Shown here piece by piece: positions 1-34,012 of a stretch of DNA of 34,012 nucleotides; the first letter of the stretch is position 1, and each line of letters starts with the position of its first letter. The position numbers were made by a program, and so were the translations under genes. This DNA comes from Bacteroidota bacterium (GTDB taxonomy: Bacteria > Bacteroidota > Bacteroidia > JAADEI01). Location of the stretch: assembly GCA_026992635.1 (NCBI GenBank), contig JALWYU010000103.1:1-34012 (forward strand), written 5' to 3'. The notes below the pieces were generated by a model that had not been told where the DNA came from, made no database searches, and saw only the letters and a program-made list of their open reading frames with translations.

Positions 1-404
1 CTCTGGGCAGCGGCATGGATCCACATATCCGGTCTTCCGAAATATCCGGCCCGGGGGATGAACATATATTTGAGGCCCACAATGGAGTTAGGCAGTGATA
101 GGGCCCACACGGCTGCCACGGCGAGGAGAAACACCAGCGTGGGCATGAGGACCATGTTCACCTTCTCAATCCCCTTCGCTATCCCCCTGTACACCACATA
201 TCCACCCACCGCCAGGGCGATTATCTGGAAAAAGACGACCTGGTGGGGAGAGTTTATGAAAGAATACCAGAGCGTCTGCGTATCCGTGTGGGTTATCTGG
301 CCCGTAGCCGAGACCCAGAAATACCTTATCGTCCACCCCATCACCACCGCATAGTAGAAGTTTATGGCCGTGGAGACCCACACCATCCACTCCCCCATCC
401 AACT
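1..404 (-). pseudogene. Broken fragment of a sodium:neurotransmitter symporter (NSS/SNF) family transporter
   Basis: Read on the minus strand, this frame is open and encodes membrane segments typical of LeuT-fold NSS transporters: a TM3-like stretch TAINFYYAVVMGW, then a hydrophobic helix, the loop GIAKGIEKVNMVLMPTL that matches the TM5-TM6 junction of the family, and a continuation off the window edge. Family members are about 450-500 residues and begin with a conserved GNIWRFPY-type TM1; TM1 and TM2 are missing, because the frame meets a stop at 423-425 just inside the ABC ATPase gene. Codon use differs from the window: 6 of 11 Ile codons are ATA and none of the 4 Arg codons visible is CGC/CGA/CGT. 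Five GGCC sites lie in 1-369, against 7 in the rest of the window. I infer a chimeric assembly edge or a recently inserted remnant. The family call is fairly secure from motifs; substrate is unknown. Confidence 0.7.
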
Positions 405-1230
405 CCGAAACATCCATTTCGCTTACACACGCCACCAGCCCCTCTTCACAAACCTCTCCCTATCACTCCATACCGGACATATCTATGGCTTGCTCGGACC
501 CAATGGCGCCGGCAAAACCTCACTCCTCAAACTCATCACCGGCGTACTCTTCCCCCAAAAAGGACAGGCACTCCTCTGGAATCAACTCACCACCCACCGC
601 AACGCCCAACAACTCGCCAGAATCTATTTCCTCCAGGAAGAGCTCGGACTCCCACCATGGAAACCCACCCAGCTCATCCAGCTCCACGGCAAATTCTACC
701 CCAACTTCAGCGAAGCAATTTTCCACGATTGCATCCACCAGCTGGGACCAGTCCCCAACCTTCCCCTACCCAAAATGTCCAGAGGTATGCGCCAAAAAGT
801 CGCCATCGCACTCGCACTCGCCGCCCAAACCGACATCCTCATCCTGGATGAACCTTTCAAAGGATTGGACATTCCCTCAAGACATGCATTCCGCCAACTC
901 CTCGCCCAGCACTTCTCTGCCTCCCGAATCATCATCATCTCCACGCACGAACTGCGTGAAGCCCAGGACCTCGTAGATAGCGTCATCTTCCTCTGGAATG
1001 GCTCCATCCTTGTCCAGGCTCCCCTTACACGCCTGGCTTCCAAACTAAATGTCATAGAAACCACGCAAAAACCCTCCAACGCCCTCTACGCCGAAGAAAT
1101 CGGCTCACACTGGAAAGCCCTCGTCCCCGCCAACCAGGAAGGCAACCTGGACATTGAATTCCTCTTCATCGCAGCAATACGAAGCGAACGAATCCGGCAC
1201 TACCTCCATACAATCCAGACGCCAAAGTAA
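364..1230 (+). CDS. ABC transporter ATP-binding protein
   Basis: Cytoplasmic ATPase subunit that would drive the permease encoded next. Walker A GPNGAGKT is at residues 45-52, a signature-like MSRGMRQK at 138-145 in the place of LSGGQ, Walker B ILILDEP at 158-164 and the switch histidine in STHE at 193-196. Length (288 aa) fits a single-domain ATPase of the CcmA/YtrB type, which commonly pairs with GntR regulators. The start is uncertain: family similarity begins near residue 12 (IQLRNIHFAY), while the ATG at 364 and the first codons lie in sequence that also reads as the foreign NSS fragment on the other strand and contain a GGCC site otherwise rare here. The true 5-prime end may therefore be lost at the junction. 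It is followed after 20 bases by the permease gene. The substrate cannot be told. Confidence 0.85.
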   Translation: MAVETHTIHSPIQLRNIHFAYTRHQPLFTNLSLSLHTGHIYGLLGPNGAGKTSLLKLITGVLFPQKGQALLWNQLTTHRNAQQLARIYFLQEELGLPPWKPTQLIQLHGKFYPNFSEAIFHDCIHQLGPVPNLPLPKMSRGMRQKVAIALALAAQTDILILDEPFKGLDIPSRHAFRQLLAQHFSASRIIIISTHELREAQDLVDSVIFLWNGSILVQAPLTRLASKLNVIETTQKPSNALYAEEIGSHWKALVPANQEGNLDIEFLFIAAIRSERIRHYLHTIQTPK

Positions 1231-1250
1231 ACTAATCAATCAAGCCAGCC

Positions 1251-1970
1251 ATGGACACCCTGACCAGACTCTTCTTACGCGACTGGCACTGGCGACTGCG
1301 CACCTTCTCCATCACACTCACGCTCCTGGCAATCCTCAGTGGCGTCCTGGGCATCGGATACTTCGCCACCGCCTACCTTCTCCTCCTGATAGCACTGGCT
1401 TATCCCTCACGCCTCTTCTACGAATGGAACCGAAATACCTCACTCCTCACAGAATACCTGCTACTCCCCATCCCCTGGTGGAAAAAATGGCTGGCTCGCT
1501 GGCTCCAGATCACTGTACTCATTCCAGCCCTGATCCTCACACTCACCGCACTCGCCCAGCAAATCCGTACAGCCCTGCATGGCGAGCCTTTTGAATTCTT
1601 TACACCTGAGAACATTCGCTACTTCCTCCAAACCTGGTATGTCCTCTCAGGTATCCTCCTGGTCGGTGGTATGTTCTTCCGCAAAGCACCCTTCCTCAAA
1701 ACAATGATCTTCATCCTGCTGTTTCTGCTCATCACCGGATTAATCGCCAAACTACTTATCCCCTACCCGGACACCCTCCTCTCTGAAACCCTGCCCGCCC
1801 ATTGGGGCTTCCTCGTCCAGATCTTCAAACATACAATCGTGGTCCTGGTGACACTCGCCCTCGGACTGGAAGACCTCCCCCAATGGACACTACACACCCT
1901 GCTATGGGGATCCATCACCTGGCTATGGCTCATCAGCCTGACCCGACTCCGCGAAATGCAAGCATTATGA
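1251..1970 (+). CDS. ABC-2-type membrane permease subunit
   Basis: A 239-residue, strongly hydrophobic protein with about six or seven predicted membrane segments (roughly residues 18-38, 38-56, 82-100, 126-145, 150-172, 186-207 and 213-232) and no other recognisable domain. Its position 20 bases after an ABC ATPase and overlapping a YtrA-type GntR regulator by ATGA suggests it is the membrane half of the exporter. The start ATG is preceded by the CC usual in this genome. I recognise no conserved motif that names a substrate, so the permease role rests on hydrophobicity and context. Confidence 0.7.
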   Translation: MDTLTRLFLRDWHWRLRTFSITLTLLAILSGVLGIGYFATAYLLLLIALAYPSRLFYEWNRNTSLLTEYLLLPIPWWKKWLARWLQITVLIPALILTLTALAQQIRTALHGEPFEFFTPENIRYFLQTWYVLSGILLVGGMFFRKAPFLKTMIFILLFLLITGLIAKLLIPYPDTLLSETLPAHWGFLVQIFKHTIVVLVTLALGLEDLPQWTLHTLLWGSITWLWLISLTRLREMQAL

Positions 1971-2377
1971 GCTTCCGATTCGCCGACTCTGAACCCACCT
2001 ACGTCCGTATCGCCCGACAAATCGGCGATGGCATCCTCGCCGGCAAATGGAAAGAACACGACCGCATTCCCTCTATCCGAGAACTGGCAGTCAACCTACA
2101 GGTCAACCCGCTCACCGTCATGCGCGCCTACGAATGGCTGGAAAAAGAAGGAATCATTGAAGCACGACCCGGCAAAGGCTACTTCGTCAAACCCGGAGGC
2201 AGCCACCGCTGGCGAACACTCCGCCTGAAACGGTTCCTGGAAAAAGAATTGCCCGCTCTCGTAGAAACCATGCAACTCCTCAACATCTCAACGCACCAGC
2301 TCATAGAACACATCCACAAAATCCAGCAGCAACAACAACACCCAAATGACCCACACCATGACCCAGCAACAAACTAA
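1967..2377 (+). CDS. GntR-family transcriptional regulator, YtrA-like
   Basis: A short (136 aa) regulator with the full GntR winged-helix: PTYVRIARQIGDGILAG, then the recognition region SIRELAVNLQVNPLTVMRAY (about residues 39-58) and the wing EGIIEARPGKGYFV. After the DNA-binding domain there are only about 55 residues, rich in Gln and His at the end (IQQQQQH), which is the size of the YtrA subfamily. YtrA members usually repress the ABC transporter operon that encodes them, so autoregulation of 364-5460 is a reasonable inference. The operator cannot be sought, because the sequence upstream of the cluster is replaced by the foreign fragment. The start is fixed by the ATGA overlap with the permease stop. 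Confidence 0.88.
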   Translation: MSFRFADSEPTYVRIARQIGDGILAGKWKEHDRIPSIRELAVNLQVNPLTVMRAYEWLEKEGIIEARPGKGYFVKPGGSHRWRTLRLKRFLEKELPALVETMQLLNISTHQLIEHIHKIQQQQQHPNDPHHDPATN

Positions 2378-2957
2378 CCTCAGCCTGTGGCTACTACTCG
2401 CCTTTCTCCTCTTCCAGATAGGCACCACCACATGGGTGATCCACCGGGGCACACAACGCCTCCAGTCCACCGCACACCTCATCACCATCCGTACACCCGA
2501 TACCCTTATCCTCCAGGGTTCAGGAACCGCACATATCCTGGTCCATACCACCAGCGACTCCCTTCCTGACATTCCACTAAGCCAGGTCATCACCACCTCC
2601 TCCCACACCATCCTGATCCAGGAAAGCGTCCAAGCCCAAATCCACACAGTCAGTCCTTTGCCCTACCTTTCCATCCAAACCATCCATATGAGCAAAACCA
2701 AACTCCTCTGCCAATCTAAGAAAATCCAGCGCCTCCACATACGCGTCCACGATATGGCTTCCCTATCCATCCATTGCACAGCAGATACCCTGATCGTCTA
2801 CGCAGACAACACCAGTTCACTGTACCTGGCAGGCAACTACCACTACGCATACATCCACGCACAGGATATGGCACACGTCCAGGCAAGCCCCAACCTCCCT
2901 CTCAGCATCCAGACCAAACAAATCGTTGGCGACGACCTCGCTTACGTCCAGCTCTAA
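2346..2957 (+). CDS. Membrane-anchored protein resembling head-GIN (DUF2807) adhesin-like proteins
   Basis: About 200 residues: a short N-terminal cytoplasmic piece, one membrane segment or uncleaved signal (LSLWLLLAFLLFQIGTTTWV), then a repetitive region of alternating hydrophobic beta strands (for example LHIRVHDMASLSIHCTADTL followed by similar units). This is the pattern of the right-handed beta-solenoid head-GIN domain common in Bacteroidota, often beside GntR/ABC genes. Two starts are possible: ATG 2346, or ATG 2358, which has the CC context preferred here. It overlaps the end of the regulator gene by 20-32 bases and is followed after 34 bases by the outer-membrane protein gene. The family assignment is tentative because no sharply conserved motif is visible. 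Confidence 0.5.
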   Translation: MTHTMTQQQTNLSLWLLLAFLLFQIGTTTWVIHRGTQRLQSTAHLITIRTPDTLILQGSGTAHILVHTTSDSLPDIPLSQVITTSSHTILIQESVQAQIHTVSPLPYLSIQTIHMSKTKLLCQSKKIQRLHIRVHDMASLSIHCTADTLIVYADNTSSLYLAGNYHYAYIHAQDMAHVQASPNLPLSIQTKQIVGDDLAYVQL

Positions 2958-2991
2958 CAAACATCACAACCCGGACCAAACCCCTGAAACC

Positions 2992-5460
2992 ATGACGCAT
3001 ACAACACCACCCTTCCACCATCTGATCAAACCAGCAATCCGCACCTGCACCACAACCCTACTCCTCACCTCCCTACTCACACCCCTATCCAGCCAGCCCC
3101 CCTGGCAACCCCAACAACAAACCCCACACGTCTTCTTCTCCATCCAGCTGAAAGACCTCCGTACCCGTGAACCCATACCCGCCGCAACCCTCCAGATCAC
3201 TTCTCCCGCAGACTCATCACTGCGCCGAACTACATTCTCCGACGACAACGGCACCGCAGAACTCACCGTACCCACCCACATACCGCTCACCTTATCCATC
3301 TCACACCCCGCCTACAAAGACACTCTGCTTGCCATTGAGCCCCTCCACGACCACACCTTCTGGGGCGTCCTGCTCCTCCATCCCACCACCCAGCAACTCC
3401 AAACCATCACCATCAAAGCACAACGTACACGCGTCAACTTTGACAAAAAAGAATACATCGTTACAGAACGCATGCGACGACGCGCAACCACCGCCACCGA
3501 CATCCTCAAAGAACTCCCCGACATCCAGTACGACCCCTTCCAGGACCAGATCCTTGTTCGCGGCAAAACCAACATCCTCTACCTCGTCAACGGCGTGGAA
3601 AAACCACCCGAATACGTCAAAAACATCTCCCCACAACGAATCCTCCGCATTGAAATCTACCGGAACCCCACAGGACGATACGCACTCCAGGGCTACGACG
3701 CCGTCATCAACATCATCCTGCGCGACGACTACATCGGCTGGGAACTCACCACCGGCGGACAAGCCGCATTCTCCACCAACTGGCAACAAGCACCCGCCCC
3801 ACTCCCCTACATGTTCAGCTTCCTCCGAACCGCTTTCATCCGCTACCGAACCACCTTCCGATTCGTCTTCTACAACTGGAAATACCACGGATACGCCCAC
3901 GACAACGACGCACTCAACTACAACACCACACCACTCTGGATCCAGCAACCCCTAGCTATCTTCCCTCAGGGATTCAACGCACTGAGCAAAGGCTGGGGCT
4001 TCTCACTCTACGCAGGTATGGACTGGATCCCCTCAACCCAGCACCAGATCGCCATAGACAGCCGATTCTCCTCCGTCTTCATCCCCTACTCCACGCAACG
4101 CGCCTACACTGTCCAGGACACACCCTCCACCCTCCACATCTATGCACGCAACGACAACACACCGCGCACCTACCAGATCACATTCACCCACACCTGGAAA
4201 TACACACGCGATTACCAGCTCCAGACCGCAATCTCCTACGCCTTCTCCCAAACCACCACCTACATCCGCTACGAAGAACAAAACCTCTTCACCATTGAAC
4301 AAATCCAGCAAAGCTGGGGACCAACCGGCAAAGCCTACTGGGAATGGAACGGAACACTCGCACACAACAAACTCCACCTCCTGATGGGAACACTCCTGGA
4401 AACCACCAAACAAACCACACGACTCACCACATCCTTCAACCTGCAACCCTCAGAAACCACGCCCGAATTCCACTACACACTCACCACACTCAAACCCTAC
4501 GCCTACCTGACCTGGCGCATCGCACAAAAACTCAAACTCCGAACCGGAACAGGCATCCAGACCATCTGGTTCACCACCAACAACACCCCACAACCCACCC
4601 TCCTCTTCATAGAACCCGCCGCCGACATCAACTGGCAACCCCACAAACTCTTCACGATCGTCCTCTCCTACCGCATGGATATAGAAAACCCTTCTATCGC
4701 ACAAATGCTCACCACCGCCATCACCCAAAACCGATACATCCGACAGATGGGCAACCCCAACCTCAAACCCTATGCCCATCACTCTATCCAGCTGGACGCC
4801 AACGCCCTCAGCGGACTCCTCTCACTCACACCCTTCTACGAATGGAGTACCAACGCCATTGACCAGATCTGGATACCCTACAACCAGGATTCCATTGTCG
4901 CAATGCCTATCCAGGGCGTCCACTACCAAAACTGGGGAACCGAATTCTCCATACCCATCCCCCTCTACAAACGCTCGCTCATCCTGATGGTCTACGGCGA
5001 ACTCACCACAACCCGACTCGCCTACGACACCCTCACCAACCAGATCTCCCGATTCTCCGGATTCATCGCACTCATCTACCACAACGAACGACACAAATTC
5101 AGTACAGGCTTCGCCAGCATGAACTTCGTCGTCAAAAACCCTCTTCTACAGGGCTACACAATGCAACTGGGCAGCCACCCACCCGACTTCTACGGATTCT
5201 TCCTCCGAAAACAATTCTGGAAAAACCGGGGATCCGCAACCCTCTACCTCACCTTCCCCTGGCAAATCCCCCCCATAGACTACACACTCACCACCGAACT
5301 CTCCAGCGCACAATGGCACCGACTCCACCAGCGCTACTACCCCGCTATGCGCTACCTGGCTGGCTTCATGCTCCGATTCAACTTCGCACAGGGTAGAACC
5401 ATCCACCACAAAAAACAACCAGATAACCAACCCCAACCACAGGGATTTCCCATGTTCTAA
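2992..5460 (+). CDS. Outer-membrane beta-barrel protein with carboxypeptidase-like and plug domains
   Basis: An 822-residue protein with a signal peptide (hydrophobic core TTLLLTSLLTPLS), then a carboxypeptidase-regulatory-like beta-sandwich (about 43-130), a TonB-plug-like segment around residues 155-240 containing LPDIQYDPFQDQILVRG and ending in GYDAVINIILRDD, and a long C-terminal barrel rich in aromatic beta strands. This is the architecture of the PF14905-type outer-membrane beta-barrel family of Bacteroidota, related to TonB-dependent receptors. ATG 2992 is chosen because it is directly followed by the signal peptide and has the CC context; an in-frame start at 2926 lies inside the previous gene. 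It is last in the five-gene plus-strand cluster and ends four bases before the stop of the convergent gene. The ligand is unknown. Confidence 0.82.
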   Translation: MTHTTPPFHHLIKPAIRTCTTTLLLTSLLTPLSSQPPWQPQQQTPHVFFSIQLKDLRTREPIPAATLQITSPADSSLRRTTFSDDNGTAELTVPTHIPLTLSISHPAYKDTLLAIEPLHDHTFWGVLLLHPTTQQLQTITIKAQRTRVNFDKKEYIVTERMRRRATTATDILKELPDIQYDPFQDQILVRGKTNILYLVNGVEKPPEYVKNISPQRILRIEIYRNPTGRYALQGYDAVINIILRDDYIGWELTTGGQAAFSTNWQQAPAPLPYMFSFLRTAFIRYRTTFRFVFYNWKYHGYAHDNDALNYNTTPLWIQQPLAIFPQGFNALSKGWGFSLYAGMDWIPSTQHQIAIDSRFSSVFIPYSTQRAYTVQDTPSTLHIYARNDNTPRTYQITFTHTWKYTRDYQLQTAISYAFSQTTTYIRYEEQNLFTIEQIQQSWGPTGKAYWEWNGTLAHNKLHLLMGTLLETTKQTTRLTTSFNLQPSETTPEFHYTLTTLKPYAYLTWRIAQKLKLRTGTGIQTIWFTTNNTPQPTLLFIEPAADINWQPHKLFTIVLSYRMDIENPSIAQMLTTAITQNRYIRQMGNPNLKPYAHHSIQLDANALSGLLSLTPFYEWSTNAIDQIWIPYNQDSIVAMPIQGVHYQNWGTEFSIPIPLYKRSLILMVYGELTTTRLAYDTLTNQISRFSGFIALIYHNERHKFSTGFASMNFVVKNPLLQGYTMQLGSHPPDFYGFFLRKQFWKNRGSATLYLTFPWQIPPIDYTLTTELSSAQWHRLHQRYYPAMRYLAGFMLRFNFAQGRTIHHKKQPDNQPQPQGFPMF

Positions 5461-5464
5461 CCCC

Positions 5465-7387
5465 TCAACGAAGCAACTCCTCCCAATTTCGCGGAACCGA
5501 CAAACCCGAACCAACCCGCAACAAAACCGACTCCTCCGGACAATACTCACCCGACACCACACTCCCCATCACAGACCCCGTAACATCCACCTCAGGCGGC
5601 AAATACGAAACCGGAGGACCCGGATTGTACACCACCGGCACACCCGCCGAAACAAACCGACCCACACGACCACGAAAACAACTCACCGGACACTGAACCG
5701 TCCCATCCAACCGACCACGAACCAGAAAAATGTCTCCATCCACCGCACCAAACCCTGTCGTTATCCCCGCCGCCAAAAACAACCCCGAATCCACAGGCAC
5801 CACACCCAGCAACAAATCTAAATCCTGACTGCCCACCACCAACGTCCACAACGTATCCGACAGATCCGGCGTAAACCGAACCACATACCCATTCAAATCA
5901 CCGCCATACGCCGTATACGCCGCCACCAAAACCGTAGAATCCGGCAACACCGCCACCGAACTCACATTGTTCAACCGCTCATAATGATCCTTGCTCCCAA
6001 ACCGCACCGAACGCAAAATGTTCCCCTGCGTATCTATACGAATCAAAAAGAGATCCGACGAATCCCACGACCCTGAAAGATGCCTGCCCGCCAGCAAAAA
6101 CGTACCGTCCGCCAGCGGAACAAACGCAAACGCCCGATCATCAACCTCATTCACGCCCACAGACTTCAAAAAATGCTCACTGACCACCTGACCCGTACCC
6201 GTATCCAGCTTCACCCACACCACATCCGAAGGAAGAAGACCACCCATCTCACTCTCCCCACCAGCATACACCCTGCCCGACGACAACAAATACGCCGCAC
6301 GAAACCACGTAATGCCTAACGTCCCGTACTCCCCATACCGGATCAGCTTCCTGATTTGACCCGCACTGTCCAGCCACATCACAAACCCCGAGTTGCTCGC
6401 ACCACTCCACCCCCCACTCAGAAAATACCCGCCCGTAGACAACTGCCGTATATACCAGCAATCGCCCTTTCCATACCGACGCTGCCACAACACCTGACCC
6501 TGACCATCTACGCGAACCACATATACCTCCACAGAATCCACCGTACGCGCCACACCACAGGCAATCCACCCCGAATCCACCGTCGGCGAAACATAATACA
6601 ACTCTTCATCCGCCGTAGAATCCCCATACGCCGCCAGCCAATCAATCACACCCTCTGGCGTCACCTGAACCAACAACGCATCTTGACCATATACGGGTCC
6701 CCCAGAACCAAAGGAAGTTACAAAACCTGCCAGTATCACCTTCCGAAGACCCGAATTCTGATTCACCGATAACACAAACTCATCACCACCAGGAAGCGGA
6801 ATCCGCGCACAAAACGTATTGCACGTGTCTGCCTCCAGCCAGCGCCGATACCGCGAACCACAACCACACAAATTGCACGCCGCCACCTCTACCATCCCAT
6901 CCGTCGTATCCGGCAACACCACCAGCGTATCACCACGCTGCCAAACCACCTGCCACGACGACGGAACCACCCACCGAAACGCAACCTGACACCCACCCAA
7001 ACACCGCGCAACAAACGTTGCGGGCTGACCCGAACACAAATACTCCGGACCCACCAGCTGAACCACACACTCCGGAACACGACAATACCGCGGACAAACC
7101 AGCGTATGCCACCTGTCCAGCACCGTATCATACACCTCCACACAAAACGAATCTATGTTGAAAATCATCAACGTATGCGCAGGATCCTGAATCGCATTGC
7201 GCTGAGCGGTCGTTAACCGCGGAATCAACAAACCCCGATCCGTACTGAAAATATCCAGAATCGCCGTGGTATCCGGATCCGTCGTGCCAATCCCTACAGA
7301 CTGCCCCCACCCCACCTGAATCCCACTCAACGTGCAAACCACCAGAAAACCAGCCCACCAGACTCTTCCAATCCAAAACCTCCACAT
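5465..7387 (-). CDS. Secreted protein with PKD-like region and seven propeller-like repeats
   Basis: About 640 residues with a signal peptide (WWAGFLVVCTLSGIQVGWGQ). The mature N-terminus has the segment VGIGTTDPDTTAILDI...GLLIPRLTTAQR common in secreted Bacteroidota proteins, then a Cys-rich PKD/Ig-like region. After that, seven units recur every 47-57 residues with the pattern hydrophobic-V-R-hydrophobic-D-x-x-G (for example VYVVRVDGQGQVLWQRRYG and DLFLIRIDTQGNILRSVRFG), consistent with a seven-bladed beta-propeller. No type IX C-terminal signal is evident; the protein ends VPRNWEELLR. Start at 7387 leaves a plausible leader after the candidate promoter; an in-frame ATG at 7423 is the alternative. 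The protein is unusually rich in Gly, Val and Trp because its coding strand is G/T-rich. Function unknown. Confidence 0.75.
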   Translation of the reverse strand: MWRFWIGRVWWAGFLVVCTLSGIQVGWGQSVGIGTTDPDTTAILDIFSTDRGLLIPRLTTAQRNAIQDPAHTLMIFNIDSFCVEVYDTVLDRWHTLVCPRYCRVPECVVQLVGPEYLCSGQPATFVARCLGGCQVAFRWVVPSSWQVVWQRGDTLVVLPDTTDGMVEVAACNLCGCGSRYRRWLEADTCNTFCARIPLPGGDEFVLSVNQNSGLRKVILAGFVTSFGSGGPVYGQDALLVQVTPEGVIDWLAAYGDSTADEELYYVSPTVDSGWIACGVARTVDSVEVYVVRVDGQGQVLWQRRYGKGDCWYIRQLSTGGYFLSGGWSGASNSGFVMWLDSAGQIRKLIRYGEYGTLGITWFRAAYLLSSGRVYAGGESEMGGLLPSDVVWVKLDTGTGQVVSEHFLKSVGVNEVDDRAFAFVPLADGTFLLAGRHLSGSWDSSDLFLIRIDTQGNILRSVRFGSKDHYERLNNVSSVAVLPDSTVLVAAYTAYGGDLNGYVVRFTPDLSDTLWTLVVGSQDLDLLLGVVPVDSGLFLAAGITTGFGAVDGDIFLVRGRLDGTVQCPVSCFRGRVGRFVSAGVPVVYNPGPPVSYLPPEVDVTGSVMGSVVSGEYCPEESVLLRVGSGLSVPRNWEELLR

Positions 7388-7430
7388 CTTCACCACCAAT
7401 TTGGAACCCAAACCACAAACCACTCATCAA

Positions 7431-7463
7431 GCAACCTACTCCATCACCCACCACCACACCAAA
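7431..7463 (-). promoter_or_regulatory. Candidate Bacteroidota-type promoter for the propeller protein gene
   Basis: On the minus strand TTTG (7463-7460) is followed after 21 bases by TAGGTTGC (7438-7431), a partial match to the -33 TTTG and -7 TAnnTTTG elements known from Bacteroides. It would start transcription near 7427, giving a leader of about 40 bases to ATG 7387. The match is imperfect and the G/T-rich strand makes chance hits likely. Confidence 0.25.
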
Positions 7464-7591
7464 CACCTTTCCCTGCCCACGTCCCCATTTCACAAAAAGA
7501 ACTCTGCAAAACAGCAACTTACAACTTCCAGGCACAAACCCGGAAACCTTTCCACCCACCCAAACACTTTCCCCTCCAAAAACTTTCCACC

Positions 7592-8257: not shown

Positions 8258-8266
8258 CCACAAACC

Positions 8267-9322
8267 ATGCACCTCACCCACACTCCAGCACTGCTCTTCC
8301 CCACACTCACCCTCCTGTTGTGCACATGCCAGACCCAACCCACCCTAACCCTGCAACAATGCACCGGCATGACTATGGGCACCACCTACGAAATCAAAAT
8401 ATGGTTCCGACAACCCACCACCCTACCCTCCCACCTCTGCCAAACTATAGACTCACTCCTCCACACCTTAGACCACCACTTCACCACCTACGACTCCACC
8501 TCTCCCCTTAACTTTATTAACTACCACCAGCAACACACCCTCTGTATTGACACGGCACTGGCACAGGTCCTCCTCAAAGCCCGCCAGATCTGGCAAGCCT
8601 CTCTCGGTACCTTCGACCCCACCGTCGGACCCGCCGTCGCCCACCAGGGCTTCGGATCGCCCCTCCTCCAGACAGACTCCTTCATCATCGGCATGCAATA
8701 CGTACACATCCAGTGCACAAACACAAACACAGACACCTGCCCATGCACACTGACTCGCGACACACTCCCCATCTACTTTGACCTGGGCGGCATCGCCAAA
8801 GGCTGGGCAATTGACCAGATCACCCACTTCATCCAAACACAATGGCAACCCTACAGAACTTATGTCAACATAGGCGGCGACCTCCGACTCGCCGGACCCG
8901 GACCACACCCCCATAACCGCTGGCACATCGGAATCGCTCATCCGCACAACCCCCTCAAACCCATTCTCGTCCTCCAGACACCCGCTACCGCACTCACCAC
9001 ATCCGGCGCCTACTTCCAGACACGAATAGACACCTCAGGAACACCCCACACCCACATCGTCAACCCCAACAACCCTTCACAACCTCTGCCCATCCACCAT
9101 ACCCTGAGCGTAACTGTGCTGGCAGAAACCGCTACGGACGCCGACGCCTGGGCAACCGCTCTCTTCGCCATCGGATGCCCACAAATCCACCACTTTATGC
9201 AACAGACATCCACTCCCCACTTCCTCATGCTCTGCCACTCCCCAACCCACCAGATTTGCTACATCACCAACATAACGAACGCCACCTTCCAGCCTATCCA
9301 GCCCATCCAGCCCTGCCATTAA
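8267..9322 (+). CDS. apbE: FAD:protein FMN transferase (ApbE family lipoprotein)
   Basis: A 351-residue ApbE. The N-terminus is a lipoprotein-like signal with cysteines at 19 and 21 (LTLLLCTC). Family landmarks follow: GMTMGTTYEIKI, the FDPTVGP segment, YFDLGGIAKGWAID, YVNIGGDLRLAG, a metal-site region TTSGAYFQ, HIVNPNNPSQPLP and ADAWATALFAIG. ApbE moves FMN from FAD onto Thr/Ser of target proteins such as NqrB, NqrC and RnfD/G on the outer face of the membrane. No target gene is in this window, so its substrate here is unknown. Contains one of the only five TCGA sites in the window (8613), within FDP. Confidence 0.9.
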   Translation: MHLTHTPALLFPTLTLLLCTCQTQPTLTLQQCTGMTMGTTYEIKIWFRQPTTLPSHLCQTIDSLLHTLDHHFTTYDSTSPLNFINYHQQHTLCIDTALAQVLLKARQIWQASLGTFDPTVGPAVAHQGFGSPLLQTDSFIIGMQYVHIQCTNTNTDTCPCTLTRDTLPIYFDLGGIAKGWAIDQITHFIQTQWQPYRTYVNIGGDLRLAGPGPHPHNRWHIGIAHPHNPLKPILVLQTPATALTTSGAYFQTRIDTSGTPHTHIVNPNNPSQPLPIHHTLSVTVLAETATDADAWATALFAIGCPQIHHFMQQTSTPHFLMLCHSPTHQICYITNITNATFQPIQPIQPCH

Positions 9323-11012: not shown

Positions 11013-11050
11013 TTATCAGGTGGCACAGACCCCCTTCCTAAGAAAATGGA

Positions 11051-11141
11051 GGAGGGGTGCCGGAGTGGCCGAACGGGGCTCCCTGCTAAGGAGTTGAGCC
11101 GGTTAATCCCGGCTCCGAGGGTTCGAATCCCTCCCCCTCCG
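11051..11141 (+). tRNA. tRNA-Ser (anticodon GCU)
   Basis: A 91-base class II tRNA. Acceptor strand GGAGGGG (11051-11057) pairs with CCCCTCC (11134-11140). The anticodon loop CTGCTAA carries GCU, which reads AGC/AGU serine codons. A long variable arm GAGCCGG-TTAAT-CCGGCTC marks serine, and the T arm is GAGGG-TTCGAAT-CCCTC. The discriminator is G and CCA is not encoded. It sits between dnaA and rpsL; its T loop holds one of the five TCGA sites, and its D arm one of the few GGCC sites. Confidence 0.97.
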
Positions 11142-11179
11142 CACTCCCTACCCACGTACACCCAAAATGAACGCAGTCC

Positions 11180-11554: not shown

Positions 11555-11559
11555 ACTCC

Positions 11560-12033: not shown

Positions 12034-12062
12034 ACCTGCCCAACCCGCAAATCACACACACC

Positions 12063-14216
12063 ATGGCAAAAGGGAAAAACATTGACTTTGGCGACGCCTT
12101 TGAAAAACTCAAACGAACACGCAATATTGGAATCGTCGCCCACATCGACGCAGGCAAAACCACCACTACAGAACGAATCCTGTTCTATACGGGACTTATC
12201 CACAAGATGGGCGAAGTCCACGAAGGAACCGCTACGATGGACTGGATGGTCCAGGAACGCGAACGCGGCATCACCATTACCGCCGCCACCACACGAGTAT
12301 TCTGGGACTACAAAGGGCAACGCTACCGAATCAACATCATTGACACGCCCGGACACGTGGACTTCACCATAGAAGTAGAACGATCGTTGCGCGTCCTGGA
12401 CGGCGCCGTCATCGTTCTGTGCGGAGTAGGCGGCGTGGAACCCCAAACGGAAACCGTCTGGCGACAAGCCAACCGATACAACGTACCCCGCATCGTCTTT
12501 GTCAACAAGATGGATCGCGTCGGGGCAGACTTCTTCAAAGCCGTCCGCCAGATCAAAGAAAAACTGGGTGCCAACCCCGTGCCGATCCAGCTGCCCATCG
12601 GCGAAGAAAGCAATTTTGTCGGCGTCATAGACCTCATCCGAATGAAAGCCCTCTACTGGGATACCGACGAGCTTGGTAAGATGTACCGCGTTGCCGATAT
12701 CCCCGAAGAACTGCGCGAACAAGCCGAACAGTACCGGCAAAACTTACTGGAAGCCATCGCTGAACTGGACGAGGAACTCTTCAACAAGTACATAGAAGAT
12801 CCCGACTCACTCACCGAGGACGACATCCTCCAGGGCCTCCGAAAAGGAACCGTCTCCTTCCAGCTGGTCCCCGTACTGTGCGGATCTGCTTTGCGCAATC
12901 GCGGGATCCAGCCCCTCTTAGACGCCGTCATCGCCTTCCTCCCCTCACCCCTGGACATCCCCGACGTGAAAGGCGTCCACCCCGATACCGGCGAAGAACT
13001 CACACGACCTACCGACCCCAACGCACCCTTCGCCGCCCTCGCCTTCAAAATCATGACCGACCCCTACGTAGGACGACTCGTCTACTTCCGCGTGTACTCA
13101 GGACGACTCCACGCCGGATCCGCCGTCTACAACCCACGTACACGCAGCAAAGAACGAATCTCACGACTCTACCAGATGCACGCCAACAAACAACAAATGA
13201 TTGAGTACGTGGAAGCCGGAGATATCGCCGCCGGCGTCGGATTCAAGGACATCCGAACCGGCGATACACTCTGCGACGAAAAACACCCCATCATCTTAGA
13301 AAGCATCAACGTGCCCGAACCCGTCATCTCTATGGCAATTGAACCCCCATCCAAAGCCGACTTTGACAAGCTCTCCATCGCCCTATCCAAACTCTCCGAA
13401 GAAGACCCCACCTTCCGCGTGAAAGTGGACGCCGAAACCGGACAGACCATCATCAGCGGAATGGGCGAACTCCACCTGGAAATCATCTTAGACCGACTCC
13501 GACGCGAATTCAAAGTGGAAGCCCGTGCCGGTAAGCCCCAGGTCGCCTATCGCGAAACCATCACCAAACCCATTACACACCGCGAACTGCTCAAGAAACA
13601 AACCGGAGGACGCGGAAAATACGCAGAAATCATCGCAGAGTTCATGCCACCCGACGACCAGCAACACCCCACCGGACTCACCTTCATCAACGAAATCTAC
13701 GGGGGCGCAATCCCCAAGGAATTCATCCCTGCCATTGAAAAAGGCTTTAAAGACGCAATGCAAACAGGACCTTTGGCAGGCTATCCCCTCATCGGACTCA
13801 AAGTTCGCGTCTTTGACGGGTCTTACCACGAGGTGGACTCCGATAGCCAGTCCTTTGAAATGTGTGCACGCGCCGCCCTCCGACATGCCACCGCCCAGGC
13901 AGACCCCATACTCTTAGAGCCCATCATGCGCGTGGAAGTGGTTACACCCGAAGAATACCTGGGCGAAGTCATAGGCGACCTCAACCGACGACGTGGCAAA
14001 ATCCTGGGTATGGAAGAAAAAGGCAACGCCCGATCAGTACTTGCCCACGTCCCCCTGTCCGAACTCTTCGGATACGTCACACAACTGCGTAGCCTGACTT
14101 CGGGACGGGCATTCGCCATGATGGAATTCTCCCACTACGAACCCGTCCCACCCAACATCCAGGAAGAAATCGTTGCCCGCGTCCGAGGAAAAGCCAAAGC
14201 CGAAGCCGAAACCTGA
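12063..14216 (+). CDS. fusA: Elongation factor G
   Basis: EF-G (717 aa) is the GTPase that drives translocation and, with RRF, ribosome recycling. G1 AHIDAGKTT starts at residue 26, followed by RERGITI (switch I/G2), DTPGHVDF (G3), NKMD (G4) and the GSA (G5) loop; the remaining domains II-V are of normal length, with conserved [16 protein letters not shown] in domain IV. tuf, which follows fusA in many phyla, is absent: rpsJ comes next after five bases, as is usual in Bacteroidota. One TCGA site (12145) falls in the invariant HID of the P-loop, and one GGCC at 12834. Confidence 0.98.
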
Positions 14217-17404: not shown

Positions 17405-17998
17405 ATGACAACAACCACAACGCAAGCCAGACGAAAGAAGAAAAAGCAGTTGACAAGCCGCGATTTCTGGCGCGAGTATGAAAGCCGGGCTGTGCTCCGT
17501 CGCCTCCGTATCTCCCCCAAAAAAATCAAGCCGCTCCTGGATCAAATCCGATGGCAACGCGTGGATACCGCCCTTGCCTATTTAGATATTGTTCCCAAAC
17601 GGGCGGCACGACCCATCGCCAAACTCATCCGATCTTGCTTAGCGAACTGGCAGGACCTCTACGGGGCTGAAGCCCCTGTCGATCTCCAGGAACTGTACAT
17701 CTCAGAAATCTACGTGACACCCGGAGGGATGCTCAAGCGGTGGCGACCCGTCTCCCGCGGACGCGCCCACCCTTACCGACGACGACTCGCACACATCTTC
17801 GTCAAAATCGCACCACTCCGCCCAGAACCCCAAACACCACCCACACAACAACAAGAAAAAGAAGCAGCAGAAAAGCAGGAGCGAGACCAGTCCACCACAA
17901 CCCCTGAAACAAAAACTCAACAAGAACAGCAGCAACCTGAAAACACAACCCAGAACACGAACACGGGGGAACTTCCCGAATCCGAAAAAACTTCTTAA
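17405..17998 (+). CDS. rplV: 50S ribosomal protein L22 with a disordered C-terminal tail
   Basis: L22 (197 aa) contacts all 23S domains and lines the tunnel. The core runs to about residue 135 and includes RISPKKIKPLLDQIR, the tunnel hairpin region YVTPGGMLKRWRPVSRGRA, and the C-terminal beta strand ending near IFVKIAP. The family is usually about 110 residues; here a tail of some 60 residues of Gln, Glu, Thr, Pro and Asn follows, plus about 20 extra N-terminal residues with RRKKKK. The tail is clearly translated in frame, with the stop at 17996. The purpose of such a tail is unknown. One TCGA at 17679. Confidence 0.95.
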   Translation: MTTTTTQARRKKKKQLTSRDFWREYESRAVLRRLRISPKKIKPLLDQIRWQRVDTALAYLDIVPKRAARPIAKLIRSCLANWQDLYGAEAPVDLQELYISEIYVTPGGMLKRWRPVSRGRAHPYRRRLAHIFVKIAPLRPEPQTPPTQQQEKEAAEKQERDQSTTTPETKTQQEQQQPENTTQNTNTGELPESEKTS

Positions 17999-20427: not shown

Positions 20428-20802
20428 ATGCCCAAAAAACGCAAACCAAAGAAAACCGAAGGGCGAAAACGATTCAAGCCCAAACTCAAAATCAAAAAAG
20501 GCGACATAGTCCAGGTCATTGCCGGCGACTATGCCTACCGCGGAAAACAGGGACGGGTCTTAGCCGTCTTCCCCGAGGAACAACGCATAATTGTGGAGGG
20601 CGTCAACCTGGTGAAAAAACACGTGAAGCCCTCACAGGAATTTCCCCAGGGCGGAATCATTGAAGTAGAAGCACCTATCCATATCTCCAACGTAATGCTG
20701 GTGGATCCCGAGACGGGCGAACCCACACGCGTCGGGCGCAAGCGCTTAGAAGACGGACGCATCGTACGCTACGCCAAGAAAAGCGGAAAAATTCTGGATT
20801 GA
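20428..20802 (+). CDS. rplX: 50S ribosomal protein L24
   Basis: L24 (124 aa) starts assembly of the 50S subunit. The KOW segment [20 protein letters not shown] with [20 protein letters not shown] is typical. About 20 basic residues precede it ([20 protein letters not shown]). The stop TGA overlaps the rplE ATG (TGATG at 20800-20804), suggesting coupled translation. Confidence 0.97.
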
Positions 20803-21431
20803 TGGCGCAAAAAGCGACAACGACGAGCAGGGGCGACGAACCCCTCCTGGATGCCTACCCCCAGGAAAACGGGAAATATATCCCCCGACTGAAACTCTAT
20901 TACAAACAACACGTTGTACCCCGCCTGATGGAACGCTTCCAGTACAAAAACGTGATGGAAGTCCCTACACTGATCAAAATCTGCCTGAATCGCGGAATTG
21001 GCTATGCCCTCCAGGATAAACGCCTCATGGACGCGGCAATGCAAGAGCTGATGCTGATTGCCGGACAAAAACCTGTCTTTACCTACGCCCGAAAGTCCGT
21101 CGCGAGCTTTCGGATTCGCAAAGGGATGCCCGTAGGTATCCGCGTAACCTTACGTGGAGACCGTATGTGGGAATTCTTAGACCGGCTGATCACCGTCGCC
21201 CTGCCACGCGTCCGCGACTTTCGTGGTGTACCCCGTACGGGCTTCGACGGAAAAGGCAACTTCTCCCTGGGTATCGCCGAACAAATCGTCTTTCCTGAAA
21301 TCAGTATAGACCAGGTACCTCGCGTGACAGGCCTGGATATCACCATCGTAACTTCCGCCGAAACCGACGAAGAAGCCGAAGCCCTCTTAGAAGAACTGGG
21401 CTTTCCCTTCACACCCCGTCCCGGAAACTAA
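20802..21431 (+). CDS. rplE: 50S ribosomal protein L5
   Basis: L5 (209 aa) contacts 5S rRNA. The core has [28 protein letters not shown] and [20 protein letters not shown]. There are about 20 extra N-terminal residues before the family start. ATG 20802 is used since it overlaps the rplX stop; a TTG three bases... directly upstream at 20799 is in frame but unnecessary. Holds one TCGA (21244) and one GGCC (21330). Confidence 0.97.
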
Positions 21432-22758: not shown

Positions 22759-22786
22759 AAAACTCACTGCAAAATCCTGAAGAGTC

Positions 22787-23158: not shown

Positions 23159-23171
23159 AATTGACGGGAAC

Positions 23172-25786: not shown

Positions 25787-25984
25787 TAGTAAGTCCACAC
25801 CTGGCTTGTATTCCCGTTGGCAAGAGGGGAGAGTACGTCCCCCCGAGTGTGTTGTCCACACCCAGGAAAGCCCCATACGAGAATGATGGAATGTTGCGTT
25901 ATTTTCTATGCGAAGTGAGGGGAAGGCAACAAAGCCGGGGGAAATTCCGTTTATTCAATAGGCAGCTTCGTAAATCCGCCAGCC
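25787..25984 (+). other. secY-clpC spacer with a repeated GTCCACACC
   Basis: About 200 bases. GTCCACACC occurs twice (25793-25801 and 25854-25862); the second is preceded by TT, making TTGTCCACA, one base from the DnaA box TTATCCACA. GGGGA and TCCCC flank GAGTACG to form a short hairpin, and an AT-rich stretch (GTTATTTTCT, GTTTATTCAATAG) precedes clpC. No small gene is seen. It probably carries the clpC promoter; the nearby skew reversal makes an origin role worth testing. Confidence 0.4.
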
Positions 25985-28510: not shown

Positions 28511-28665
28511 CGTGTTCATACGACCTTTTTGCCGATGCCCATTGAGAACACGCGAGTTCGGACCACGTTGCTCTGCTCAACCTGACAAGGTTGATACGGG
28601 GAAGACAAGGACATTTTTTGAATGTCCGGGAATTATGCCGGATCCGAAATGAACAGGCTTCGCCA
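28511..28665 (+). other. Hairpin-rich leader between clpC and the MFS gene
   Basis: Three inverted repeats in 155 bases: CGTGTTC 28511-28517 with GAACACG 28546-28552; TCAACCT 28577-28583 with AGGTTGA 28588-28594 (four-base loop); GGACAT 28609-28614 with ATGTCC 28622-28627. None is followed by a clear T-run in the plus direction. They may end clpC mRNA or form a leader of the transporter mRNA. Confidence 0.4.
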
Positions 28666-29793: not shown

Positions 29794-29818
29794 CTTTTGC
29801 AATAAAGTGGACTGGATC

Positions 29819-31138
29819 ATGGTCGGAGAGGTCAGACCGGGAACAGAAGCACCAAACACCCATTCTGAAAGGAACAAGGGGGTTGGGAACGGTCTGAGTA
29901 CGCCGTCTCCCTTTTCAGTGTATGCGATTCGTGCACAATTCCCTGTTTTGCACAGGGCTATGCATGGCAAGCCGCTAATCTATCTGGATAACGCTGCGTC
30001 CACACAGAAGCCCCAGGTCGTGATTGATACGCTGGTCCGCTTTTACTCCACCACATACAGCAATGTCCATCGGGGAGCCTATGCATTAAGCGAAGAGGCG
30101 ACTGCCCGGTATGAAGAAGCCCGTCAGATTGTGGCACGCTTCTTAGGCGCACGCTCCTGGCGAGAGATTGTTTTTGTCCGGGGGGCAACAGAAGGCATTA
30201 ACCTCCTGGCATTTTCCTTAGGTGAGTACTTTCTGCGGGAAGGAGATACGGTGGTCGTTACAGAGATGGAGCACCACTCCAATTTAGTGCCCTGGCAAAT
30301 GGCTTGTGCCCGGAAAGGTGCGCACCTGCGGGTTGTTCCCCTTCGTGAGGATGGCGATCTGGACCTGGATCAGCTGGAAACCCTCCTTGCTCAGAAACCG
30401 AAAATCCTGGCTGTTACGCATGTGTCCAATTCGCTGGGTACGGTCAATCCCATTCGTCAGATCGTGGAAATTGCCCATGCTTATGGTGTGGTGGTGGTGG
30501 TAGATGGTGCCCAGGCAGTTGCGCATGTTCCGGTCAACGTTCAGGAGCTGGACTGTGATTTCTATGTGTTTTCCGGGCATAAGATTTATGGTCCGACGGG
30601 GATTGGCGTGGTCTACGGTAAGGAAGAGTGGCTGGACCGACTGCCGCCGTACCAGGGTGGCGGTGAGATGATCCGGGAAGTCACCTTTGAAAAAACCACC
30701 TACAACGATATTCCCTATCGGTTTGAAGCCGGTACGCCCAACATTGTGGATGCGGTGGGGTTAGGTGCGGCATTGCAATTTGTGGAGTTAACGGGTCGTG
30801 AGCAGATCTTCCGCCATGAAGACCAGTTAATCAAGGAGTTAGAAAAGGGGCTGCGCGCGATACAGGGTGTCCGTGTGCTGGGTGCACCCCAAAAACGTGT
30901 GGCGGCAATCTCGTTTGTCGTTGAAGGCGTACATGCCCACGATATTGGAACAGGCTTGGATTTACACGGCATTTGTGTGCGGACTGGGCACCACTGTACA
31001 CAGCCTGTAATGCGCTTTTATGGGGTACCGGCAACGGTTCGTCCTTCCTTAGCCATGTACAACACGCGCGAGGAAATAGAACGCTTTCTGGCGGCGCTGG
31101 AAGAAGTCATTGCCTTTTTCCGGCGTGGCTCTGCTTAA
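29819..31138 (+). CDS. sufS: Cysteine desulfurase SufS
   Basis: A PLP enzyme (439 aa from ATG 29819) that takes sulfur from cysteine for Fe-S clusters. Family landmarks: IRAQFPVLHRAMHGKPLIYL, DNAASTQKPQVV, the SNVHRGAY region, TEMEHHSNLVPWQ, the PLP-lysine in FSGHKIYGPTG (K255), and the active cysteine in RTGHHCTQPVM (C393). About 30 residues precede the usual start; a GTG at 29807 is an earlier alternative, and a GTG just before YAIRAQF a later one. It pairs with sufU 12 bases downstream, the arrangement of the SufS-SufU system. sufBCD are not in the window. Confidence 0.95.
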   Translation: MVGEVRPGTEAPNTHSERNKGVGNGLSTPSPFSVYAIRAQFPVLHRAMHGKPLIYLDNAASTQKPQVVIDTLVRFYSTTYSNVHRGAYALSEEATARYEEARQIVARFLGARSWREIVFVRGATEGINLLAFSLGEYFLREGDTVVVTEMEHHSNLVPWQMACARKGAHLRVVPLREDGDLDLDQLETLLAQKPKILAVTHVSNSLGTVNPIRQIVEIAHAYGVVVVVDGAQAVAHVPVNVQELDCDFYVFSGHKIYGPTGIGVVYGKEEWLDRLPPYQGGGEMIREVTFEKTTYNDIPYRFEAGTPNIVDAVGLGAALQFVELTGREQIFRHEDQLIKELEKGLRAIQGVRVLGAPQKRVAAISFVVEGVHAHDIGTGLDLHGICVRTGHHCTQPVMRFYGVPATVRPSLAMYNTREEIERFLAALEEVIAFFRRGSA

Positions 31139-31150
31139 AATCGCCAGGAC

Positions 31151-31612
31151 ATGAGCGACCTGCAAAGTCTGTACCAGGAAGTGATTCTGGATCACAGTCG
31201 GAATCCCCGGCATTTTGGCAAGCCCCAACAGTGGACGCATCACATCCGGGGACAGAATCCACTCTGTGGTGATGAAATTGACCTTTACGTTACGCTGGAT
31301 GAAGAAAAGCAGGTCATTCGGTCCATCCATTTTGATGGGCAGGGATGTTCTATCAGTATTGCCAGTGCGTCGTTTATGGCGGAGCATTTGAGCGGGAAGT
31401 CGCGTACGGAAGCCCTTACGTGGATTCAGCGATTTTTCCAAATGGTCAAAACACCATTCACTGAGCCCCTGAACGAAGAAGAATATGGCGATCTGATTGT
31501 ATTTGGTGGTGTTCGTGCATTTCCCTCGCGTGTGAAATGCGCTACTCTGGCTTGGCACGCATTAGAATCGGTATTGAAAGGAGAAGGAAAAGAAGTCATC
31601 ACGACCGAATAG
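31151..31612 (+). CDS. sufU: SufU-type sulfur acceptor/scaffold protein
   Basis: A 153-residue IscU-fold protein. Zinc/sulfur-site residues C39, D41, C66 and C130 are all present (NPLCGDEID, GQGCSISIAS, RVKCATLAW), and the insertion between C66 and the last cysteine typical of SufU rather than IscU is seen. SufU activates SufS and accepts the persulfide. It sits 12 bases after sufS, so both are likely on one mRNA, ended by the hairpins downstream. Confidence 0.95.
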   Translation: MSDLQSLYQEVILDHSRNPRHFGKPQQWTHHIRGQNPLCGDEIDLYVTLDEEKQVIRSIHFDGQGCSISIASASFMAEHLSGKSRTEALTWIQRFFQMVKTPFTEPLNEEEYGDLIVFGGVRAFPSRVKCATLAWHALESVLKGEGKEVITTE

Positions 31613-31682
31613 GAAAGTCCCAAACCGGTTGGTTGCTTCCTTTTCCCTGTGTGCTTGTACAATTTGTGCTGGCGTGGAACAT

Positions 31683-31790
31683 GTGCTGACTGAGCACGCA
31701 AACCCGTTCATCGGGAACTTTTTGACCTGCTCAAAGCCAGTGCGAGCTTCGTGGCTTAAACGCCTGAACCTGCCCGGGTAGGGCTCAGGG
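31683..31790 (+). ncRNA. Candidate structured RNA: row of hairpins downstream of sufU
   Basis: Between two convergent genes lie four stems in just over 100 bases: GTGCT/AGCAC (31683-31697), CCCG/CGGG (31703-31715, followed by AACTTTTT so possibly the sufU terminator), AAGCCA/TGGCTT (31734-31757) with an inner CGA/TCG, and CCTGA/TCAGG (31763-31789) enclosing CCTGC-CCGG-GTAGG. A strong terminator follows at 31802. TACAAT near 31669 could be a -10 element. I cannot match it to SRP, tmRNA, RNase P or 6S RNA. Could also be only the 3-prime end of the suf mRNA. Confidence 0.3.
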
Positions 31791-31801
31791 AATCAGATGG
31801 A

Positions 31802-31857
31802 GGTCCCCCTTTACCCTCCTTGTTTTCCGGGTGGGCAAGGGGGACCCTCTTTTCCTT
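31802..31857 (+). terminator. Intrinsic terminator, plus direction
   Basis: GGTCCCCCTT (31802-31811) pairs perfectly with AAGGGGGACC (31837-31846), and CTCTTTTCCTT follows. The loop is 25 bases and may fold further. It would stop transcription from sufU or the candidate RNA before the convergent surface-protein gene ending at 31878. The T-rich run is on the plus side only. Confidence 0.65.
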
Positions 31858-31877
31858 CACAAAGCTGTGTGTTGCGG

Positions 31878-33741
31878 TCAATCAGTCTGCGCATAGTAGA
31901 AGAACCGAAGGAGGGCTCGCTGTCCCGATACAGTCTCAACGACCAGGAAATAGATTCCTGAATGCTCCGGAGCGGGTAAAACCATAGCTGGAGTCCGACT
32001 GCCAGAACCTGTAGCCATAGCGAGCATACGCCCATCTATGGTTTGGAGCCAGGCATGCTTAAGCGGCTCATGCGTTGCCCAGATCAAGATCTGATTCTGA
32101 CGCAATTGCCAGTAGACCAGGTTTGATCCGGTGGAAGGAGTGCTTGTGATGGCGGAAGGCATATCTACCCATATGTAAAGGGTATCGCTCCCTACCAGTC
32201 CGCACACGGTATCCCGACAGGATACGCCAATGACATAATAGCCGGGCTGTGTGTACACATGCATATTTTGCTGGCAGGAGGTAATGGTTCCATCACCCCA
32301 GTAAATGGTACAGACATCGCAGGGTGGAGAGAAGACGCTCACGAACACAGTGTCCCCAACGTAGGCATGGGCACTATCACTGGAATGGATGGAGTCCGTA
32401 ATGATGGTGGCGTCCAGGAAAAGTTCATCGGGACAGACAGCACAGAGGGTATCTACATGTGTAGGCATGGGCGCATGCCGAAAGAGGTAAGAATCCACCG
32501 AAACATAAGGGCTATAATCCAGGAGGAGCAGATAGACGGAATCATCGGGCGGATAAGGATAGGGTTCTACGAGCCAGAAGGGCTGGGAATAGCAATAGGT
32601 AGTAATTCCTTTGCCTGTTTGGGCATCCAGGTACACGTATCCCACTTTTTGCTGGTGTGTGATGCCTGCGATGGACACGAAGCTGTTTCCGAAAAGTTCA
32701 ATCGCGCCGCGACCCAGTCGTACAAAGCTATCCAGGACTGTAATCCAATGGATAGTAGCGGGTGCTCCATAGGGGTCCAATCTGAGGACAAAACCCTTCG
32801 TGTACGGTAGCCAGGGATAGTTAATATAGCCGGCGACGTAGGCGGCATGGTCTGAAAGGGCGGCGGCCAGTGGGACGAGCATCACGGAATCTGTCGTTGT
32901 GAATATCTTGTTGCAATACAATGGGTTACCACTCCACGCGTCAATCAGACATACGTACAGGGTATCGCGGGTATCGCGCCGGGTTCCCGCAACGAAAATG
33001 TAGGTAGAATCGTCGGTGGCGATTGCCTGCCAGTCTACATAATGCCAGCGTGTTGCCCACGCAATTTGCGTGCCCTGTCCATTGAGGGCAAACAGAATAT
33101 CACAGGCACCAGAACACAAGGATGCTACGACGCGATCCAGCCCTCCTTCATGATAGACCAGATCCTGAACGGTATGTCCCCAGGGAATGTCAGGGTTGGT
33201 GACCAGTCGGATCCAGTCCAGCGAATGTGTAGCCATATTGAGGCGGGCGACCAATCCTGCGGTCGTGGCAGGTCCGGTGTAACATCCCCTGCCTCCTATG
33301 TAGACAATGGAGCCCGACAATTGAAACCTTTCATAAGCGGTTGTGGCATACAGGCGATGTGCCGGGAAAAAACAAATTGGGATCACCACCTGCAATCCCT
33401 GTTGTCAACCAGTTGTACTGGTTCACAACCATAATGCGTGGCGTAGAATCCACCTCCCAGACCTCATTCACTACAAAGTACTGCCGTGTGATATCGCCAA
33501 GAGAAGGCGAGCCGGCAACGCCCAGCAACGTATCACAGTGAGCAACCCGACACAGGAAGAGGTCGGGTCCGGCGGCACTGAGTGCGTCTGCTCCGTAGGC
33601 TCTGACAAAGGTAGCTGGAGCACTGAGCTGGATTGCCTGCGCCTGCAAAGCGGGGAGTTGTGTCATTGGTGCGGCAAGTGGCAGGAGGAGCAATGACCAG
33701 CACTGAGGGAGGTGTCCGGGAAGGAGGGTTTGGCGGAGCAT
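31878..33741 (-). pseudogene. Surface protein with PKD and type IX-like C-terminal domains, split by a frameshift
   Basis: Two overlapping frames on the minus strand make one protein. The first (33741-33331) has a signal peptide (WSLLLLPLAAPMTQLPALQA) and runs to NWLTTGIAGGDPNLFFPG; the second (from about 33370 to 31878) resumes as PAHRLYATTAYERF. The switch is at a run of six T (six A on the plus strand, 33367-33372); removing one T restores a single frame of about 620 residues. The body has repeated beta-propeller-like units, a PKD domain (IYWGDG ... HVYTQPGYYVIGV), and an end of about 75 residues with GIYFLVVETVSG that resembles type A sorting domains of the type IX secretion system. It may be a true pseudogene, a sequencing error, or a slippage-expressed gene. 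Function unknown. Confidence 0.75.
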
Positions 33742-34012
33742 GGCTGCTGGATTTTGGGGGTTGGCTGACTTTTCAAGGGGTGGACATTATAAAAGATGCT
33801 GGACTGGATGATAAGGGTTGCACGGGACACGAAGAATAGCGGAAACTGCTGATTATGAGTTGACTGGGTTGGTCAGGTGCAGGGGGTCGGGGTGGTTTAG
33901 GAGAGGGCTGACAAGCGCAAGGGACAGGTTTGACCTGATTCAAGCAGGTGGACGCAAGGGGCTGGGTTTCGGTGAGACAAGAGGCGGTTTTTTGGGGTTG
34001 GTTGGGTTTGGG
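33742..34012. other. G-rich upstream region without a gene
   Basis: 271 bases with 112 G and 34 C on the plus strand. No frame on either strand looks coding. It holds the candidate promoter above and a small inverted repeat CAGGT-TTG-ACCTG. The gene that would lie beyond is outside the window. Confidence 0.5.
33786..33814 (-). promoter_or_regulatory. Candidate promoter of the split surface-protein gene
   Basis: On the minus strand TTATCA (33814-33809) and TATAAT (33791-33786) are 17 bases apart, about 45 bases before the ATG at 33741. TATAAT stands out in otherwise G-rich sequence. The -35 match is weak, and Bacteroidota primary sigma factors often prefer TAnnTTTG, so this is tentative. Confidence 0.3.

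Follow-up and report, generated by a model that had tools for sequence, protein, structure and literature searches.

Why should a four-base palindrome, TCGA, be almost missing from a 34,012-nucleotide stretch of a Bacteroidota genome? This stretch, i.e. positions 1 to 34,012 of contig JALWYU010000103.1 in assembly GCA_026992635.1 (the whole of which is called the window below; contig C103 of genome G000), carries dnaA, a tRNA-Ser gene, fusA, ribosomal genes (e.g. rplV and rplE) and secY-like and clpC-like genes, and its elongation factor G (EF-G) shares 58-64 % identity with Bacteroidota homologues. About 96 % of TCGA sites have been removed from G000 and its closest relatives. We consider the best explanation (probability about 0.72) to be long-lasting selection on the DNA itself against restriction sites, exerted in the case of TCGA through a TaqI-type restriction-modification (R-M) system that G000 would have lost or that is missing from its assembly.

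TCGA is found at only five positions of the window, whereas 92.0 sites are expected under a Markov model on one strand, 98.7 on both strands and 123.5 from base composition; the Poisson probability of the shortfall is ~1e-35. Within open reading frames (ORFs), 4 sites were observed and 141.6 expected when synonymous codons were shuffled. A sequence-only reading of the window had listed the five positions exactly, with no site overlooked, and had rightly placed two of them in the T loop of tRNA-Ser and the HID motif of EF-G; its expectation of about 120 sites is the one that base composition gives. The residual sites are the following:

8613-8616: Phe-Asp codons of an ApbE-family gene (8267-9322)
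11123-11126: T loop (TTCGA) of tRNA-Ser(GCT) (gene 11051-11142)
12145-12148: HID motif of the EF-G gene (12063-14216)
17679-17682: ribosomal protein L22, rplV (gene 17405-17998)
21244-21247: Phe-Asp codons of ribosomal protein L5, rplE (gene 20802-21431)

Counts were extended to 41 stretches of G000, the window included, i.e. 578,491 bases or 27 % of the assembly (2.13 Mb, 82.6 % complete; with 114 contigs and this degree of completeness, it is probably a metagenome-assembled genome). They were compared with a maximal-order Markov model and with a codon null, i.e. a shuffle of synonymous codons with protein sequence and codon usage fixed, and the same words were counted in control Bacteroidota loci. 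TCGA occurred 58 times against 1486.9 expected under the Markov model (0.039) and, under the codon null, 40 times against ~1940 (0.02); the control loci gave a Markov median of 0.98 and a codon-null ratio of 0.91. The genome-wide Markov check proposed in the sequence-only reading thus yields a ratio far from 1, and the loss extends beyond the window.

That reading had treated TCGA as a lone case, which has to be corrected: at least three palindromes, TCGA among them, have nearly vanished. GGCC (12 in the window, ~165-165.9 expected under the Markov model) and CTAG (4, ~51-53.0 expected) are similarly scarce, and in the genome sample their Markov counts are 165 against 2503.7 (0.066) and 77 against 649.8 (0.119), respectively. 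The three most depleted 4-mers of G000 are all palindromes. Under the codon null, GGCC stands at 0.07 and CTAG at 0.19 in G000, compared with 1.04 and ~0.44-0.45 in the controls, where the Markov median for CTAG is 0.26; because of these codon-null control ratios, CTAG scarcity is regarded as partly a general feature, but that of TCGA and GGCC is not. Five of the 12 GGCC sites of the window are clustered at one end, and only seven lie in the remaining 33.6 kb:

48-369: GGCC cluster (sites at 48, 74, 102, 299 and 366)

The cluster falls in what reads as an internal fragment of a membrane-transporter gene (1-413, minus strand), by its look a putative sodium:neurotransmitter symporter. These GGCC-rich first ~410 bases may have been acquired recently, or they may be a chimeric or foreign end of the contig. 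The plus strand of the window is also asymmetric in composition (C 10770 and G 7667; A 9137 and T 6438).

Four relatives were surveyed, i.e. three sister genomes from another genus of the same family (G001, G002 and G003) and an order-level relative, G004, the nearest genome outside the family. Markov ratios in G001, G002 and G003 were 0.059, 0.079 and 0.076 for TCGA and 0.066, 0.045 and 0.118 for GGCC, and those of G004 were 1.25 and 0.76. Since the sisters share the loss at 37-42 % G+C (53 % in G000) and G004 does not, it is a family trait independent of base composition. G001 and G002 additionally deplete GATC, GCGC, CGCG, GTAC, AGCT and CCWGG, which fits the many methyltransferase genes they carry (12 and 19 PF01555 matches, respectively). 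In the G004 sample (L135-L139), TCGA is not avoided, but GTCGAC (1 vs 16) and CTCGAG (1 vs 13) are rare and GTAC is at 0.13 under the codon null; its presumed set of restriction sites differs from that of the family of G000.

The loss of TCGA is due to selection on DNA, and not to codon preference or methylation-driven mutation. In 51 kb of intergenic DNA outside tRNA genes, ~2 TCGA were counted for ~121 expected, and 11 GGCC for 269. As TCGA is lost to the same degree within and between genes, a codon or mRNA effect was rejected as the cause. Within genes of the genome sample, all synonymous routes are hit. Before codons beginning with GA, the share of ATC among Ile codons falls from 0.463 to 0.009, with ATA rising from 0.095 to 0.44 and ATT from 0.442 to 0.551; GTC falls from 0.215 to 0.005, CTC from 0.221 to 0.001 and TTC from 0.439 to 0.027, so that the codon shifts described for the window hold more widely. 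Ser TCG before A (0.269 to 0.002) and Arg CGA after T (0.174 to 0.002) collapse in the same way. GTT, too, drops before GA codons (0.242 to 0.117); avoidance of TTGA was rejected as the reason, its ratio being 1.07 under the codon null. The one-mismatch neighbours of TCGA (0.89-1.46) show no depletion, the deamination product TTGA/TCAA shows no excess (the same 1.07), and GGTC/GACC is at 0.85. Loss of CpG, already discounted in the sequence-only reading, was likewise rejected, CG being as frequent in the window as GC (2330 and 2317).

Avoidance stops at tRNA genes, which hold 12 of the 58 residual TCGA sites. The T loop is TTCGA in all 35 G000 tRNAs read, and a shift towards TTCAA under avoidance was therefore rejected; GGCC is present in 16 of the 35, the exemption being the same for both words. 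Among 18 readable control tRNAs, 12 have TTCAA and 6 TTCGA. As undepleted G004 has TTCGA in 5 of 5 tRNAs, this T loop is probably ancestral and unshifted by selection.

The avoidance of GGCC can also be followed into proteins, where Trp-Pro is encodable only as TGG-CCN, which always contains GGCC. Among dipeptides with an expectation of at least 15, Trp-Pro is the most depleted both in G000 (33 against 223 expected, 0.15; next lowest dipeptide 0.46) and in the sisters (6 against 40, 0.15), whereas the control Bacteroidota have 93 for 113 expected (Fisher tests against the control, P = 8e-14 for G000 and 9e-6 for the sisters). The ratio is unchanged (0.15) in ORFs of at least 300 amino acids (aa), and the reverse dipeptide, Pro-Trp, is at 0.64 in G000. 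Other GG-CC junctions stand at ~0.08-0.11 (before Pro, GGG occurs 16 times, CGG 15 times and AGG 4 times), so that GGCC sites whose removal forces an amino-acid change have disappeared almost as completely as those at synonymous junctions. We hold it somewhat better than an even chance that GGCC avoidance removed ~85 % of Trp-Pro across the proteome of the family, through a system that has no C5 methyltransferase or has since been lost. No earlier report of a GGCC-forced Trp-Pro depletion was found in the literature searched.

A TaqI-type gene pair was found in two sisters. In G002 (contig C125) and G001 (C62), a methylmalonyl-CoA mutase gene is followed by a methyltransferase gene and then by an endonuclease gene of the RE_TaqI family; the pair is complete in G002, and the G001 endonuclease is cut by the contig end. 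The methyltransferase (437 aa) has Eco57I and TaqI_C domains and matches M.TaqI in the PDB (E = 2e-75), and the G002 endonuclease scores 211.5 bits against the RE_TaqI Pfam profile (cut-off 26.1). Their domain content marks these pairs as predicted TaqI-type R-M systems, composed of a RE_TaqI endonuclease and a gamma-class methyltransferase with TaqI_C, which would recognise TCGA. Synteny was also compared for signs that the pair had been lost: G000 does encode a homologue of the phosphatase that adjoins the pair in G001, but among different genes, so that no empty site could be read there.

Other R-M genes of G000 correspond to further depleted words. PF01555 methyltransferases adjoin endonucleases of the MjaI (contig C77), Tsp45I (C80) and ThaI (C61) families, whose sites we take, on the assumption that they share the specificities of their namesakes, to be CTAG, GTSAC and CGCG. 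Under the codon null, GTSAC and CGCG are at 0.45 and 0.66 in G000, compared with 0.86 and 0.90 in the controls; as CTAG, too, is lower than in the controls, the depletion pattern tracks R-M content. The MjaI (CTAG) type is the only methyltransferase found to be common to all four family genomes. On contig C18 of G000 (L006:1339-2945, minus strand), a PF01555 methyltransferase with an SPPY motif stands beside a protein of 221-245 aa for which no Pfam or PADLOC match was obtained. The only relatives found for the latter are hypothetical proteins of Synechococcus phage ACG-2014d (partial, 38 % identity), and none was found in 396 sampled genomes of the phylum or in plasmids. It possibly belongs to an undescribed family of restriction endonucleases; with such matches no specificity could be assigned, and it was set aside as a candidate GGCC or TCGA enzyme. 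Contig C48 (L004:1429-2166, plus strand) encodes a CcrM-like methyltransferase with a DPPF motif, beside which no endonuclease gene was seen in G000; its orthologues in the sisters (L217 and L219) are followed by a protein of 196-209 aa without family match.

We propose that orthodox Type II R-M systems have long been present in the family of G000-G003, among them a TaqI-type pair whose endonuclease would cut TCGA and whose gamma-class N6-adenine methyltransferase would protect it. Host sites left unmethylated would be cut occasionally and mutations removing them favoured, until almost none remained. The same process would have acted on CTAG (MjaI type), on GTSAC (Tsp45I type) and weakly on CGCG (ThaI type), and a further system would have removed GGCC. 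We infer self-restriction to be the selecting force, and G000 to have lost the TaqI pair recently or to carry it in the missing part of the assembly. Rusinov et al. 2015 (PMC4687349) report avoidance of orthodox Type II sites in roughly half of all cases, more so with longer residence, and that avoidance without a system can mark a lost one; restriction-site avoidance, traces of lost systems included, is thus an already known phenomenon. A restriction cause, as suggested by the sequence-only reading, is well supported by the match between several depleted words and the R-M families of G000 and its sisters. The methyltransferase/endonuclease pair that it recommended looking for exists in G001 and G002, but a search of G003 (95 % complete) and of G000, as far as it is assembled (82.6 %), revealed neither a TaqI endonuclease nor an M.TaqI-like gene.

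This last absence weighs against the proposal, as do several other observations. Neither the PF09573 profile nor the sister endonuclease protein, used as queries, gave a match in G000, and methylmalonyl-CoA mutase was not found in G000 or G003. Depletion in these two genomes matches that of the carriers in strength; had the pair been lost, there would have been little time since then for the signal to decay. No system for GGCC was identified: the four family genomes hold no C5 DNA methyltransferase (weak matches came from short frames of 180-196 aa only, and these resemble the rRNA methyltransferase RsmD), and no GGCC-type endonuclease was seen among the neighbours examined. CTAG is low in the controls too and scarce in most prokaryotes (PMC4687349). 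Finally, every tRNA read keeps TTCGA even though TTCAA is common in the controls, so that the selection per site fails against tRNA constraint.

The missing pair could also mean that an unrecognised TCGA-directed system is common to all four genomes and that the TaqI-type pairs of two sisters are later acquisitions. G000 and G003 being depleted like the carriers, and the family being rich in R-M genes without a Pfam name (the C18 pair, and the CcrM-like methyltransferase of C48 with its sister orthologues), would fit this scenario. We regard it as unlikely, given that the only shared methyltransferase found is of the MjaI (CTAG) type and that no relative of the endonuclease candidate on C18 turned up in the phylum genomes sampled. 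Erosion by mutation, in which cytosine methylation in TCGA and GGCC followed by deamination or Vsr-like repair would erase sites without any selection, is far less credible. Both words do contain methylatable cytosines, and Vsr-type repair has been published as an explanation for CTAG (PMC4687349). However, Ile before GA gains mostly ATA over ATT, GTT drops before GA codons, and the family lacks a C5 enzyme; the spread over synonymous routes and the level of TTGA/TCAA argue against a leading role for methylcytosine deamination, which was rejected since its products are not in excess.

Least credible of all is selection on RNA or translation, by a UCGA-cutting ribonuclease or a codon-pair preference. 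The intact T loops look as if folded RNA were exempt, but tRNAs escape GGCC avoidance as well and their TTCGA is shared with undepleted G004; moreover, the loss is equally strong between genes and strikes palindromes above all.

Some further repeats and defence genes were observed in G000. Intergenic arrays with a 22-base period (e.g. CACCCCCTAATGGGTCAATCGGC) occur on contigs C80 (L022 ~6759-7400) and C55 (start of L017), one of them directly upstream of the Tsp45I-type R-M genes. On contig C83 (L250 ~650-1400), a 37-base repeat and nine spacers make up a CRISPR array; six of the spacers were compared with viral contigs without a match. A Cas3-like gene lies on contig C6. Also on C6 (L141:6880-14798, minus strand), two adjacent genes of ~1,320 aa may form a further defence system: one encodes an Eco57I-type methyltransferase similar to Type IIG/DISARM/BREX proteins, the other a helicase whose matches are DISARM/PLD-helicase-like.

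Altogether, an uncultured lineage here shows restriction-site avoidance in a clean and extreme form. The pattern may serve as an archive of the R-M systems that the family has or once had, and from it the enzymes that its members carried can be predicted. The loss of Trp-Pro competes with protein function and so gauges the strength of restriction selection, on which the untouched tRNA T loops set an upper bound from the other direction.

Compared with the MjaI, Tsp45I and ThaI systems, G000 encodes family members beside PF01555 methyltransferases and depletes the known sites, its specificities being borrowed from the namesakes. The TaqI system of Thermus aquaticus has TCGA as its site. Like it, G001 and G002 have an Eco57I + TaqI_C methyltransferase adjoining a TaqI-family endonuclease, although this pair, whose specificity for TCGA is predicted, is not found in the G000 assembly. 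As in the avoidance described by Rusinov et al. 2015 (PMC4687349), short palindromes are scarce genome-wide and the scarcity is common to relatives with or without the system, being stronger with long residence. What differs here is that two unrelated 4-base palindromes are held simultaneously at 0.02-0.07 (codon null), and that GGCC avoidance is accompanied by a forced depletion of the Trp-Pro dipeptide.

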